Positions 18,008-22,170 of a DNA stretch of 64,000 nucleotides are shown one piece after another (positions within the stretch are counted from its first letter, which is position 1; each line of letters starts with the position of its first letter). The notes beneath the pieces are model-generated. The model was given only the letters and a program-made list of their open reading frames with translations, searched no databases and was not told the DNA's origin. This DNA comes from Psychroflexus halocasei. GTDB lineage: Bacteria; Bacteroidota; Bacteroidia; Flavobacteriales; Flavobacteriaceae. The DNA lies in contig NZ_FNQF01000002.1 in assembly GCF_900107595.1 (NCBI RefSeq), forward strand, positions 372,001-436,000, in the 5' to 3' direction. A program made the position numbers and the translations under genes.

Positions 18008-20290
18008 CTAAAAACTATATTTTAAGAAAAATGTAAAGTTTCGACCTGGCTCAAAGATTGATCGACCATTATAACCATATTGGTTCTTGAAAGAAAAACT
18101 CAAGTGATCACGGTAAGCCTCATCAAAAACATTAAGCGCCGCAACGCCGAATTCATATTTTTTATAGCGTAATCCTGCTTTTAAATCAACGGTTTGCCAA
18201 GAAGGTGTTTCAGTCTCACCAAAAGATGGCGCTATGTCGGATTGTTTGCTGACGTAATTATAAAATACATCTGCCCAAAATATGCCTTTTGCATATGATA
18301 AGTTTAAACGATTATTCCAAGGTGGTGTCAAAGGTAAGGACTCTCCTAAATCTTTATTTTTAGTATAAACGTAAGCAGTTCGCATGCCTAAAGAATAATT
18401 CTCAAGAAAATCAATATTTAAACTTGCTTCAAAACCTGTTTTATAAGCATCGTTTAAGTTTTGAAAAACTTTAGGATGCTTTGGCTCCATTTGAGGCATA
18501 AATTTTCTGTCTAAATCTTCATCAACAATACCTACTATATAATTATCAAATATTGAATAATAGGTTGAGAAATTGTATTCCAAACGATTAAGAAAACCTG
18601 TTCCTAAAGATGCACTTCCGCTCAAACCAATTTCAAATTGATTATTAACTTCTGCATCTAAATTAGGATTTCCAATATATTCAAATGGATCTGAACCAAC
18701 CGTAAAATGATTGATAAATCTTTCAGCCATTGTTGCTGATCGAACACCTCGACCGTAAGCCAATTCGAGATTTAAATTTTCATGAAGCTGTGTTTTATAA
18801 GATGCAGTCCAACTTAAATTATGCTCTTCTCTTTTATCAAGATCAGGATAATATGCTGCAAAATCGTCTTCAGGCATTTCAGTTTCTGCGACAACATAAT
18901 CATATCGTGCGCCTATCGTAACAAGTGATAATTCACTTAACTTCCATTTTGCTTCATTAAAAAATCCATAATTATTGACATAGGAGTCTTGCCAGATTTG
19001 GTCAACAAAAACTTTTGGTTCAGGCAAAGGATTTCCCATCATATCTTTTTTAATAATACGCGTTCTATCACCTTCACGAGAAATTTGGTAAGCATCTAGT
19101 CCACTAAAAACTCTAATATTATCAGCCAACTGCCAATCTAACTCTATTTTTCCACCACTTGTAAAAGATTCTACTGGTGAAGCAGCTTCTGTACTGCCAC
19201 GATTGGGTCTCCATAGATTTGACATTAAATGATCTACGTAGGAATAATATATCTTTGCTTTAAGACCGTTTATGTTATCAGAAATTTGACTCCATGAATA
19301 ATCTAGAGTTGCGATTGAAGAATCATCAAACTCTGTATCCATAGGCAAACCAGCATGCAAAACATCTCTACCAAAAGATTGCTTCCAACTTGCTTGTAAA
19401 CGTTGATTCTCAGTTAAATTATAGCCTAACTTTAAACCATAATCTATGCTTCTGAATTGACTTGGAATGGTAATCCCTTCACCATCTTCATAATTTCCAA
19501 AGTCACGATAACCCCAATTTCCGCTAATATCAAATTTATCTTTAACATAATTTAAACTCGCGGAGGTTGTCATGGCATCACCATTTGTTTCATAACCCGC
19601 AGAAACTGATCCTGATATACCGATTTTTTGATGCTGTGGTGATTTAGTCACCATATTCACAACGCCACCAAAGGTGGAACCATAACGCATACTAAAAGGC
19701 CCTTTAATGACTTCAATTTTTTGGATTTCTTCAGGAGAAACATGTGTTGTGATCGGGTCCATTCGACTAGGACAAGCATGGACTATTTTGGTGCCTCCAT
19801 CATATTGAACGTTGAGCTGCTCATACTGTGAAGCTCTGAAAGTGGGATCTATAGCGTAGTTACCGCGTTTGATTAATGAGAAACCGTTTAAATCCTGAAA
19901 TAAATCTCCAATATTTTTAGGCTGCACAACTCTTTCTGCCAAATTTGGTGTTGAAGTTGACAAGGCTGGATCTTGCATTCGGTTTCCAGTAATTAAAACT
20001 TCATTTAAGATGTTTATTTCTGGTTTAAGTAAAATGATGCTTGGTGTTTGATCTGTGATTTCAATCAAGAGATTCTGATATCCCATATGAGATATCACAT
20101 AAGTCTGCCCGACTTTTAATTTAATTTTCGCTGAATCGTTGGCAGGAATGATGCGCTGATTTTGTTGATTTTCAGCTGCAGCTAAAGTCAAATTCTCATT
20201 TGTCTTAGCATCTTTTATCTGGTAAAAATTGTTTTGTGCAATAAGTGTTAAATTGAAACACATAAATATTGCAATAAAGAAATATTTCAT
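18008..20290 (-). CDS. TonB-dependent receptor with OprC-like copper-binding residues
   Basis: 760 residues: signal peptide (MKYFFIAIFMCFNLTLIAQ), an N-terminal carboxypeptidase-like segment, a plug domain (about residues 95-215, with VIKGPFSMRYGSTFGGVVNM), and a C-terminal beta barrel ending in Phe (FFLKYSF), as outer-membrane proteins do. The plug has C173-x3-M177 in HACPSRMDP and the barrel has H354-x-M356 in VDHLMSNLW. As I recall, Pseudomonas OprC binds copper through CxxxM and HxM at residues 143/147 and 323/325, so both composition and separation match. I infer a copper importer. It is co-transcribed with the Cys-motif protein 48 bases upstream. Confidence 0.85.
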   Translation of the reverse strand: MKYFFIAIFMCFNLTLIAQNNFYQIKDAKTNENLTLAAAENQQNQRIIPANDSAKIKLKVGQTYVISHMGYQNLLIEITDQTPSIILLKPEINILNEVLITGNRMQDPALSTSTPNLAERVVQPKNIGDLFQDLNGFSLIKRGNYAIDPTFRASQYEQLNVQYDGGTKIVHACPSRMDPITTHVSPEEIQKIEVIKGPFSMRYGSTFGGVVNMVTKSPQHQKIGISGSVSAGYETNGDAMTTSASLNYVKDKFDISGNWGYRDFGNYEDGEGITIPSQFRSIDYGLKLGYNLTENQRLQASWKQSFGRDVLHAGLPMDTEFDDSSIATLDYSWSQISDNINGLKAKIYYSYVDHLMSNLWRPNRGSTEAASPVESFTSGGKIELDWQLADNIRVFSGLDAYQISREGDRTRIIKKDMMGNPLPEPKVFVDQIWQDSYVNNYGFFNEAKWKLSELSLVTIGARYDYVVAETEMPEDDFAAYYPDLDKREEHNLSWTASYKTQLHENLNLELAYGRGVRSATMAERFINHFTVGSDPFEYIGNPNLDAEVNNQFEIGLSGSASLGTGFLNRLEYNFSTYYSIFDNYIVGIVDEDLDRKFMPQMEPKHPKVFQNLNDAYKTGFEASLNIDFLENYSLGMRTAYVYTKNKDLGESLPLTPPWNNRLNLSYAKGIFWADVFYNYVSKQSDIAPSFGETETPSWQTVDLKAGLRYKKYEFGVAALNVFDEAYRDHLSFSFKNQYGYNGRSIFEPGRNFTFFLKYSF

Positions 20291-20338
20291 TGTTAGTGAT
20301 GAATTAATTAAACGTAAAATTTTAAATTGTTAAAACGT

Positions 20339-20716
20339 TTAACTCACTAATGGTGGCTTTAGGAAAGCTTGAGAAAATAAATAATTATAAAAATTATTAT
20401 AGATGTAGTTTGGTGAATGATTAATATTTATAACATCATTTTTAGGATTTTCAAAAGAAGTGATTGAAAAAACTAAATCTTTCTCAGCATGAATTTCAAA
20501 TCTTTTTTCTTCAGAAGAATCATCCTGATCGAGAACTTTTGATAAATAGCATTTACCATCACATTGAAGTTCCTCGTTATCTTGATTTACACAAAAATTC
20601 TCTATAAAGGTATCCGTAAAAACAGCATAATAACTCATAAAAAAAGCTGATTTGATTGTGAATGATAAAACGATCACGATCAGAAAATAAGCAATATGAG
20701 GTTTTCTAATTTGCAT
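20339..20716 (-). CDS. Small membrane-anchored cysteine-motif protein
   Basis: 125 residues. One N-terminal hydrophobic segment (about 8-30), then an exported region with three cysteines: FCVNQDNEELQCDGKCYLSK (C42, C52, C56). The CDGKCYL block resembles small Bacteroidota proteins I recall beside TonB receptors. It is the first gene of an operon with the copper-type receptor, so a metal-handling or receptor-assembly role is plausible; the cysteines could bind copper. The promoter has an upstream TTGAC-N4-ATCAT site and a -7 box ending four bases before the ATG, implying a nearly leaderless message. The exact function is unknown. Confidence 0.65.
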   Translation of the reverse strand: MQIRKPHIAYFLIVIVLSFTIKSAFFMSYYAVFTDTFIENFCVNQDNEELQCDGKCYLSKVLDQDDSSEEKRFEIHAEKDLVFSITSFENPKNDVININHSPNYIYNNFYNYLFSQAFLKPPLVS

Positions 20717-20720
20717 AAAA

Positions 20721-20764
20721 CAAAAATACGCTCATCTTAAACTTATAAAAATGATATTTGTCAA
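20721..20764 (-). promoter_or_regulatory. Activator-type promoter of the Cys-protein / copper receptor operon
   Basis: Read on the minus strand: TTGAC-AAAT-ATCAT (20764-20751), 22 bases, then TATTTTTG (20728-20721), then four bases to the ATG. There is no -33 TTTG. If transcription begins at the A of the ATG, the dyad is centred at -41.5, the class II position for Crp/Fnr activators. The same arrangement occurs at 21437-21480. Confidence 0.65.
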
Positions 20765-20768
20765 TTTA

Positions 20769-20800
20769 TTGATTAATCGGATAATTAAGTCTTATTTTTG
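20769..20800 (+). promoter_or_regulatory. Probable promoter of the crp/fnr gene
   Basis: A -7 TATTTTTG (20793-20800) lies 21 bases before the ATG, with a TTG (20769-20771) 21 bases further upstream as a weak -33. The neighbouring TTGAC-N4-ATCAT site (20751-20764) touches this promoter, so the regulator may also affect its own expression. Confidence 0.45.
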
Positions 20801-20821
20801 AAGTAAAATCCTACTTGATAA

Positions 20822-21418
20822 ATGGTTCCTGAAAACATTTTGAATGCTTACCAAGCATCTGTTGAAAAATATAAAAAAGATGAAGTTATTTTTGAAGAAA
20901 ATGATAATGCACATCATTACTTCCAAATCCATCAAGGTCAAGTCAAAATGAATAACTATAATGAAAATGGGAAAGAATTTATTCAAGGCATTTTTTACGC
21001 TGGAGATAGTTTTGGAGAGCCACCATTATTCGCCGATATCAAATATCCCGCGGCAGCTGTAGCGCTTGAGGATTCCTTGATTTATAAACTTTCAAAACCT
21101 AAATTGATCAACTTGCTTGAAGAGCAACCAAAAGTACACTTTCATATCACCGAGCGTTTATCAAAACGATTGTTTTATAAATCTTTGATGGCTTCAGAAA
21201 TCTCTTCAGAAGAACCTGAACACCGCATTGTAAGTCTTCTACATTTTTTAAAAAAACATGTCCACCATCTTAAAGATCATGAAGAATTTGAGGTTGATTT
21301 AAAACGTCAACAAATTGCTGACTTAACAGGGTTAAGAGTTGAAACAGTCATTAGAGCCTGTAAAAATTTAGAAAAGAAAAATAAAATTAGAATTATCAAA
21401 CGCAAAATATTCTTCTGA
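20822..21418 (+). CDS. Crp/Fnr family transcriptional regulator
   Basis: 198 residues: an N-terminal cyclic-nucleotide-binding-like beta barrel (about 15-115), a dimer helix, and a C-terminal winged HTH (about 150-195). The recognition helix reads LRVETVIRA with E174 and R178, matching the Glu and Arg by which CRP and FNR read the TGA half-site. The sensor lacks both known ligands: there is no N-terminal cysteine cluster (only C180 exists) and the cAMP-phosphate Arg is absent (ADIKYPAAAVAL). So it is neither an Fe-S FNR nor a cAMP sensor; heme or another signal is possible. Two TGA-N6-TCA operators flank it, in front of the operons on either side. Confidence 0.9.
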   Translation: MVPENILNAYQASVEKYKKDEVIFEENDNAHHYFQIHQGQVKMNNYNENGKEFIQGIFYAGDSFGEPPLFADIKYPAAAVALEDSLIYKLSKPKLINLLEEQPKVHFHITERLSKRLFYKSLMASEISSEEPEHRIVSLLHFLKKHVHHLKDHEEFEVDLKRQQIADLTGLRVETVIRACKNLEKKNKIRIIKRKIFF

Positions 21419-21436
21419 TAAAGCCTAAAATTCAAC

Positions 21437-21480
21437 TTGACTGAAATCATAAACTAAAAGATTTATTATATTTAAGTTTG
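21437..21480 (+). promoter_or_regulatory. Activator-type promoter of the membrane protein / globin operon
   Basis: TTGAC-TGAA-ATCAT (21437-21450), 22 bases, then TAAGTTTG (21473-21480), then 13 bases to the ATG. Both operator arms and the 22-base gap are identical to those of the divergent copper receptor operon. With a start point five bases after the -7 box, the dyad is centred at -41.5. Confidence 0.65.
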
Positions 21481-21493
21481 TAACAAAAAGATT

Positions 21494-21778
21494 ATGAGCG
21501 CATTACAAAACTTAAATCAGAAGTTTCAGGAAGAATATATGGCAAACGCAGTTCTAGGAATCATCTTATCAAGTTGTTTGGGATCTATTGCCGCCATGAT
21601 GATTTTGATTGATGGAAATACAATTTTCAATCTCATACATCTCACATGGATTGTGAGTGTCTGCATGATTTACAATATGGCTTTTATAGTTCATCTTAAG
21701 GAAAACTTAGTCCTGAACATACTTTACCTCAGTGTTGCATCAAGTTTATTAACAATCTTATATCACATTATATTTTGA
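21494..21778 (+). CDS. Small membrane protein linked to a truncated hemoglobin
   Basis: 94 residues with a short soluble N-terminus and three predicted membrane segments (about residues 19-39, 46-66 and 72-93). I do not recognise a named family. The stop codon overlaps the start of the truncated hemoglobin gene (TTGA), so translation is coupled and the products may work together at the membrane. The promoter carries a putative Crp/Fnr site at about -41.5. Confidence 0.65.
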   Translation: MSALQNLNQKFQEEYMANAVLGIILSSCLGSIAAMMILIDGNTIFNLIHLTWIVSVCMIYNMAFIVHLKENLVLNILYLSVASSLLTILYHIIF

Positions 21779-22170
21779 TTAAAAAAGATATTTCAAACAG
21801 AGCTGATGTCGAGTTATTGGTCAATACTTTTTATGATCGCATTCGTCAAAATGAAAAAATAGGGTTTTATTTCAATGAAACGATTTCAGATTGGGATAGT
21901 CATCTAGAAAAACTGACAGATTTTTGGGACACTCAACTTTTGAATGCGAGAAACTTTAAAGGTAATCCAAGAACTGCACATATCAAAGTCGATAATCGTT
22001 TCAATCATGAGATAACGACGAAAGAATTTGGCGAATGGCTCAACTTATGGTTTAAAACCGTGAATGAACTTTTTAAGGGTGAAGTTGCTCAAACAGCTAA
22101 AGACAGAGCTAGAAAAATGTCAACACATCTTTTTATGAACATGTATAGGTATAGAAAAGTTGACGCTTAA
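21775..22170 (+). CDS. Group III truncated hemoglobin
   Basis: 131 residues from a TTG start that overlaps the previous stop codon; no ATG is available in the N-terminal region. Key globin residues align with Campylobacter Ctb: Tyr B10 (FYDRI, Y20), His E7 (DSHLEKL, H43), the proximal His F8 (NPRTAHIKV, H69) and the Trp of EFGEWLNLW. Such globins bind O2 or NO at a ferrous heme and have been tied to microaerobic and nitrosative stress. Co-expression with the membrane protein and control by the adjacent Crp/Fnr regulator are inferred from the shared promoter motif. Confidence 0.9.
   Translation: MIKKDISNRADVELLVNTFYDRIRQNEKIGFYFNETISDWDSHLEKLTDFWDTQLLNARNFKGNPRTAHIKVDNRFNHEITTKEFGEWLNLWFKTVNELFKGEVAQTAKDRARKMSTHLFMNMYRYRKVDA

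Follow-up and report, generated by a model that had tools for sequence, protein, structure and literature searches.

In Campylobacter jejuni, NssR regulates Ctb according to the available part of PMC4601167, and the accessible text of PMC1274295 gives cyanobacterial HcpR sites of the form TTGACnnnnGTCAA. In copper uptake, the portions available of PMC9426467, PMC9973294 and PMC12914433 describe CruR as heading a TonB copper-transporter operon, with its motifs at near-constant spacing. For flavobacteria, including F. psychrophilum, the excerpted text of PMC9723704 places the sigma-A box TAnnTTTG at -12 to -5 and reports that cbb3 and haem genes rise under oxygen limitation, the regulator not being named in it; the literature searched named neither an operator nor a regulator behind the response of flavobacteria to low oxygen. 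Here we describe a locus in a 64-kb stretch of the Psychroflexus halocasei genome (the window), in which a copper-receptor operon and a membrane protein/globin operon flank the gene of a Crp/Fnr-family regulator, P0001, and both carry the operator TTGAC-N4-ATCAT. The original prediction was a small, locally encoded regulon in which P0001 uses both sites. We estimate at roughly 60% the probability that the sites are instead used mainly by different Crp/Fnr members, the copper site by a low-oxygen regulon run by a receiver-Crp fusion (P0006), and the globin site by P0001 in response to nitric oxide (NO). The computational analysis shows the sequence, position and spacing of the elements, their conservation and their enrichment across the genome, gene co-occurrence and the separation of operator subtypes. 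The promoter elements are as follows (subtype scores are explained below).

20751-20764, minus strand: operator of the copper operon, TTGAC-AAAT-ATCAT as read from the sequence; low-oxygen-regulon subtype, score -28.0, dyad centre -41.5.
20721-20728, minus strand: -7 box of the copper operon, TATTTTTG, 22 bases after the operator; predicted +1 on the A of an ATG (20716).
21437-21450, plus strand: operator of the membrane protein/globin operon, TTGAC-TGAA-ATCAT; P0001-adjacent subtype, score +9.2, dyad centre -41.5.
21473-21480, plus strand: -7 box of the membrane protein/globin operon, TAAGTTTG, 22 bases after the operator; predicted +1 at 21485, giving a 9-nt leader.

Direct reading bears out the coordinates, gaps and boxes as originally claimed: the dyad arms are identical and the four central bases alone differ. 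By eye, both promoters lack the TTTG at -33, again as claimed, and because the TAnnTTTG box is placed at -12 to -5 (PMC9723704, available part) both dyads are centred at -41.5, the position first proposed. Given this centre, the missing -33 element and the fixed spacing, the two sites are best read as operators of class II, at which Crp/Fnr-family dimers recognising an nTGA half-site act as activators. That they are repressor or dual sites, with P0001 for instance blocking transcription until released by NO, is very improbable; some Crp/Fnr sites do repress, but the same three features fit activation.

In the window, exact matches to TTGACNNNNATCAT are found only at the two operators, and the 14-mer on its own, with one mismatch allowed, occurs about as often as in shuffled sequence (8 matches in 64 kb vs 9.8). 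A scan of the whole genome (G000) for the composite of operator, gap and box, which had been proposed as a check, gave results far above chance: 18 matches with at most two mismatches, against 2 for the reversed pattern, the only three exact ones being both window sites and hemN. When the dyad is reduced to its TGA-N6-TCA core and gaps of 18 to 26 bases are allowed throughout the genome, 17 of the 51 dyad-box pairs lie at gap 22, whereas the other eight gaps average 4.25 each (Poisson P 2.5e-6). Of the 14 among these 17 gap-22 sites that were inspected, 13 precede a gene in the right orientation and one, C28:112172, does not. The targets identified above curated cut-offs are an oxygen-independent hemN, a fused ccoN/O, the copper nitrite reductase gene nirK, a Sec-type nosZ sitting behind a cytochrome c gene, hpf (HPF/YfiA), and the anaerobic C4-dicarboxylate transporter gene dcu with the aspartase gene aspA; an OmpW gene is above its Pfam cut-off. 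They are joined by a CcoI-like ATPase (under the copper-ATPase cut-offs), a second CcoN-like oxidase (under the ccoN cut-off), a usp-like gene (by-eye assignment), the gene of a 205-aa protein (C28:86059) and both window operons. At least one motif match is present in 130 of the 149 family genomes. The set looks like a microaerobic/denitrification regulon rather than a local one, and with 13 gap-22 sites before genes in this genome alone the idea of a small regulon encoded at the locus is not supported. The element is found in most of the sampled family genomes and predicts members of the regulon directly, including the N2O reductase, which is relevant to N2O sinks.

The operators themselves fall into two subtypes. 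At promoters of the membrane protein gene (P0003) that adjoin P0001, the consensus is TGATT-N3-(A/G)TCAT-AAA, and for regulon sites of 13 P0001-negative genomes it is TGA(T/C)A..T(A/G)TCATnTTT. Sites were scored by 17-column log-odds, positive values lying on the P0001 side and negative ones on the side of the low-oxygen regulon, with 54 P0001-type sites (L215, whose dyad is 19 nt before the ATG, was excluded) and 90 regulon sites of those 13 genomes, taken among the matches listed, as training sets. Leave-one-out classification was correct for 54/54 and 87/90 sites, respectively, a separation that common descent explains in part, the training sites being largely orthologous promoters. The window sites fall on opposite sides (-28.0 for copper, +9.2 for globin), so that the description of one shared operator is not supported. 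For the copper operons of 19 other genomes, 18 sites are on the regulon side and one scores 0.0. On the P0001 side, six promoters that are not homologous to those of P0003 score +10.6 to +20.7, before hmp (G036, G051, G138), norB and a remote truncated haemoglobin (trHb) gene (G033), and RIC (G142).

The question of which proteins own the sites was approached through the number of motif matches per genome. In this genome the clear Crp/Fnr proteins are three, P0001, P0006 and P0007, a fourth hit being below the cut-off, and P0007 (CRP3) was set aside as owner, its recognition stretch having no Glu by eye. P0006 is a 346-aa receiver-cNMP-HTH fusion with Response_reg, cNMP_binding and HTH_Crp_2 domains, the last two at 61.4 and 50.8 bits, above cut-off. 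Orthologues of P0006 are carried by 66 of the 149 family genomes, a CEQC-bearing FNR (P0008) by 90 and P0001 by 32; for FNR, 92 genomes had a hit, of which G036 and G124 were excluded as having a distant paralogue only. In a linear fit over the 149 genomes, motif number rises with P0006 (coefficient +7.3, t 11.4) and with FNR (+3.8, t 5.8) and is independent of P0001 (-0.04, t -0.06), t values whose significance is overstated by the relatedness of the genomes. The 24 genomes without any of the three have a median motif number of 0. FNR (P0008) was not found in this genome, which has P0006 and P0001; in other genomes its gene is divergent from a ccoI-like gene at three of four loci inspected (G049, G005 and G107, not G121). 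Just upstream of the P0006 gene lies that of a FixL-like kinase, for whose PAS domain the best solved relatives are FixL and DosP (1.4e-15). Its PAS His, kept in 8/8 kinases looked at, aligns to the haem-ligand His of FixL, and the Arg of the GxGR stretch is present in 7/8, this genome having Lys. Immediately after the receiver-Crp gene come an operator and a usp-like gene, in this genome and in 6/7 other such loci fetched.

The P0001 gene and the operon downstream of it comprise the following features.

20822-21418, plus strand: P0001, Crp/Fnr-family regulator of 198 aa, with cNMP_binding (71 bits) and HTH_Crp_2 (35.2 bits) domains, both above cut-off.
20769-20800, plus strand: probable promoter of the P0001 gene, read from the sequence only: TTG at 20769-20771, 21 bases, and TATTTTTG at 20793-20800.
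21494-21778, plus strand: P0003, membrane protein of 94 aa, matching no family above a cut-off.
21775-22170, plus strand: P0004, group III truncated haemoglobin, whose TTG start overlaps the P0003 stop.

The recognition stretch of P0001 is V-E-T-V-I-R, which keeps the Glu and Arg that read TGA half-sites, and the regulator was also rightly described as having neither an Fe-S cysteine cluster nor the cAMP-contact Arg: P0001 and 22 aligned orthologues (23 sequences) share no conserved Cys, and a conserved Y-P-A stands at the position of the Arg-Ser cAMP contacts of CRP. The profile of P0004 is that of a group III trHb (2ig3, 1.4e-19), with H68, W87 and W91 invariant. P0003 orthologues are present in 30/32 P0001 genomes vs 15/117 others (P 5e-18), counts that were typed from tables and come from related genomes. 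In a search for TGA dyads, the operator is kept at P0003 promoters adjoining P0001 in relatives, in 23/23 of one set and 55/55 of another; in the second set the dyad is at the promoter position in 54/55 loci, and the gap to the box is 23 bases in 39, 22 in 12, with no box recognised in 4.

These associations bear on the possibility that P0006 alone owns both window sites and all others in the genome, P0001 binding elsewhere or nowhere, which we regard as unlikely. P0006 and FNR do account for the motif counts, and the recognition stretches of P0006 and P0001 share E..IR. Seven of the 15 P0001-negative genomes with P0003 were fetched, and the P0003 promoter has a dyad in three of them; the P0003 family also adjoins the receiver-Crp gene in G031 and G111 (L118, L119). 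However, those three dyads score -5.7, -23.3 and -1.7 and the other four promoters have none, the P0001-P0003 association is strong, and the distinct subtype recurs at promoters without homology to those of P0003, either next to P0001 relatives or within genomes that have P0001.

Across the best 80 of 583 P0001 relatives, spanning Psychroflexus, Tenacibaculum, Salegentibacter, Flavobacterium, Aequorivita, Pedobacter and others, a gene for trHb, RIC, Hmp, qNor or hemerythrin is found within 5 kb in 77 of the loci, as a raw count. By gene, trHb accounts for 62, RIC for 9, qNor for 4, hemerythrin for 3 and Hmp for 2, and when trHb is not counted an NO-related gene remains in 17/80. The hmp genes beside P0001 relatives (G036, G051 and G138) have an operator abutting the regulator's start. 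The original link between regulator and globin is thus supported, with NO or nitrosative stress as the most likely signal of P0001, and the part that made P0001 the owner of both sites is not supported, in view of the motif counts above and the copper operators described below. The co-occurrence of P0001 with qNor is weak (9/32 vs 11/117, P 0.015). NO reductase was considered as a core P0001 target and rejected, a P0001-type operator with box being found at only 1/21 norB genes (G033; 20 genomes); L143 has a dyad and no TAnnTTT box. For ATGATTNNNATCATAAA (46/149 genomes), matches were few and in part P0003 sites. As a separate observation, L258, L260 and L262 have P0001 relatives beside a flavohaemoglobin gene with the operator abutting the regulator's start, and in L258 and L260 an HPP-family or similar membrane protein is also present.

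On the other side of P0001, the copper operon comprises a leader gene and a receptor gene.

18008-20290, minus strand: P0005, TonB-dependent receptor with TonB_dep_Rec and Plug domains.
20339-20716, minus strand: P0002, first open reading frame (ORF) of the operon, 125 aa, with an N-terminal hydrophobic segment, CDGKC (CxxxC) and a C-terminal PP.
20293-20350, minus strand: predicted intergenic stem-loop, its 5' arm starting at 20350, the base after the P0002 Pro-Pro codons, and its 3' arm ending at 20293; the P0005 ATG is at 20290.

The best NCBIfam model for P0005 is TonB-copper (TIGR01778), at 228 bits under its 472 cut-off, and copper is a putative substrate. Relatives at E 1e-100 are found in 27/149 genomes, and 20 of these 27 carry the dyad before the receptor operon, with 21-23 bases to TAnnTTT(G/A). 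Of the original proposal, these results support Crp/Fnr-type operators that occupy the class II position and are conserved in relatives, together with a tie of copper uptake to genes of respiration or globins. The copper operon also bears on the reading in which P0001 binds both window sites, tying copper uptake to globin-based O2 or NO handling, and the wider motif family belongs to another regulator, which we consider quite unlikely. The P0001 gene does lie between the two operons, whose dyad arms and spacing are identical, and copper-like operons are near P0001 in 5/80 loci, namely L178 and L180 (Psychroflexus), with close orthologues, and L240, L218 and L256, with distant P0002-like genes, accompanied in L218 and L256 by distant P0005-like genes. 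Yet the copper operator is kept in 14/21 copper-receptor genomes without P0001, P0001 is present in 6/27 copper-receptor genomes, not above expectation (P 1.0), and the copper sites of the window and of L178 (-28.0 and -28.8) are on the opposite side to the P0003 sites. L178, a Psychroflexus metagenome-assembled genome, has the nearest named P0001 relative (75 percent) and keeps both operators, with a copper-operon gap of 23. Among the other copper operons near P0001, L218 scores -1.1, L256 has no site with a box, and L180 (+9.8) and L240 (+6.9) fall on the P0001 side; because of these two, some relatives may have their copper operon under the control of P0001. The distant P0002-like genes within 5 kb of P0001 (L218, L240 and L256, from Pedobacter and Christiangramia) hint at a recurrent copper-P0001 neighbourhood, and the copper-operon operators of relatives (L089-L109) are often GTGAC-N4-GTCAC (first G, last C) rather than ATGAT-N4-ATCAT.

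Separate use of the two sites, by P0006 and P0001, is therefore the preferred reading, and several observations weigh against it. Besides the shared descent of the training sites, the relatedness behind the co-occurrence counts, the raw nature of the neighbourhood count given above and the positive scores of L180 and L240, the globin site of the window mixes the two subtypes: TTGAC on the left resembles the regulon sites, the dyad by itself contributes +1.6 and the AAA flank supplies most of the score, so that the site may be under dual control or answer to P0006 alone. In this same genome, the sites before the usp and CcoN-like oxidase (ccoN2) genes are on the P0001 side (+4.0 and +7.5), and its own norB is without a P0001-type boxed operator, in line with the count of one in 21. 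G054, which has P0001, carries P0003 twice, and the site of the second copy scores -0.6. G048 and G147 (completeness 82 and 73) have 9 and 7 sites and no regulator was found in them. The recognition residues shared by P0001 and P0006 belong here as well, and in the available part of PMC8510549 a CRP/FNR homologue of Flavobacteriales is predicted to be a sensor of carbon rather than oxygen.

In the model that we favour, the FixL-like kinase would phosphorylate P0006, the most likely runner of the low-oxygen/denitrification regulon in this genome. At low oxygen, P0006 would turn on the genes for the cbb3 oxidase and its assembly and for HemN, NosZ and NirK, and with them outer-membrane copper uptake, copper being needed by CcoN, NosZ and NirK; this would offer a reason for copper uptake to rise together with the copper enzymes. 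Nitrosative (NO) stress would lead P0001 to activate the group III trHb, in parallel to NssR and Ctb of Campylobacter. Low-oxygen and NO routes of the Crp/Fnr family would thus most likely meet at this locus. Which protein binds which site, activation over repression, both signals and the copper substrate are the inferred parts of this scheme.

The copper operon may have a second level of control. The ATG of P0002 begins at the predicted +1 (20716), and the first in-frame start codon is 0-3 nt from the predicted +1 in 14/18 genomes (8 ATG, 6 GTG). The 22 orthologues (L089-L114) were chosen by their CxKC motif, 5 of the 27 copper-receptor loci giving no CxKC ORF. A Pro-Pro is present in 22/22, 63-71 residues after the last Cys (63-66 in 19/22), and within the last 11 residues in 20/22 as opposed to 2/587 other ORFs. 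Pro121, Pro122, Cys42, Asn44, Cys52, Lys55 and Cys56 are invariant in the 23 P0002 sequences, the CxKC part by construction. DUF2946 (PF11162) was considered and is not among the families matched by the 23 members at E up to 1; DUF6769 matched one of them (E 0.0022) and was not taken up. The window stem-loop has z-scores of -3.63 on 171 nt and -2.51 on 123 nt, and the mean over 22 relatives is -2.08 vs -0.91 for 55 control intergenic regions (P 0.0013, uncorrected for relatedness or length), the exact arms not being conserved across the 22. We tentatively propose, at somewhat less than even odds, that the operon is gated twice, by low oxygen through the kinase and receiver-Crp fusion and then by copper through P0002 as a leaderless leader ORF, a Bacteroidota counterpart of CutF/CruR. 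Its CxxxC and invariant C-terminal Pro-Pro would form a copper-sensing arrest peptide, and whether the ribosome stalls at Pro-Pro would decide if the TonB-receptor start codon is masked by the stem that begins one base further on. The available text of PMC12992588 gives Bacteroidota as an exception for copper-related RAPP/RGPP leader ORFs and describes the TonB-related class throughout Gram-negatives, and the accessible part of a CutF survey counts Bacteroidota among its three main phyla; for these reasons P0002 may already be in such a survey under another name.

The nirK promoter of this genome (C32:47265-47308) contains AGGACAAGATTGTCTT between operator and -7 box, and AGGATAAAATTGTCCT and AGGACAAATTTGTCCT are found upstream of norB (L129, C42); all three look like a second, Rrf2/NsrR-like site, and an Rrf2-like gene is divergent from the cytochrome-nosZ operon (C30:166045). 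At L020 (C20:282223-285058), where the operator is of the P0001 subtype (+7.5), a 603-aa CcoN-like protein, possibly an unusual oxidase or NO reductase, is encoded with a 337-aa cytochrome-c-type partner.

Compared with known systems, P0001 resembles the NO regulators HcpR, DNR and NnrR in being FNR-like, without a Cys motif and with probable NO-metabolism targets; it differs from HcpR, for which the HcpR2 motif is GTAACnnnnGTTAC, in that its sites are mostly before the trHb operon and not hcp. It shares with NssR of C. jejuni the link between a CRP-family protein and a group III trHb, seen here in 62/80 P0001 loci. NssR sites have TAA half-sites, whereas those described here, from a search for TGA dyads, carry TGA, and the NO response of P0001 is a prediction. 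With FNR of Escherichia coli and relatives, as far as the accessible descriptions go, the present sites have in common the nTGA half-sites, the class II position and the target ompW, but P0001 and P0006 are without the Fe-S Cys cluster. The FNR targets there also include dcu-aspA and hemN. P0002 resembles the design of CruR (Bordetella) and CutF (Rhodobacter) as outlined in the available parts of PMC9426467 and PMC9973294: a copper operon is headed by a small gene whose exported product has a Cys motif and a C-terminal proline motif. CutF has a stem-loop before the downstream gene; the predicted stem of the window ends just before the P0005 ATG. P0002 differs from both in not being detected as DUF2946, in a spacing of 63-66 instead of 45, and in its start codon at the predicted +1. 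Finally, the rhizobial FixL-FixJ-FixK2 system, in the partial accounts available, likewise joins a haem-PAS kinase, a receiver protein and a Crp/Fnr activator, with targets including the cbb3 oxidase and nos genes. There, receiver and Crp/Fnr protein are separate, while in Flavobacteriaceae they form one polypeptide, P0006, at TAnnTTTG promoters, and the passage from FixL-like kinase to receiver-Crp fusion is the proposed oxygen route for species without FNR, beside a separate NO route.

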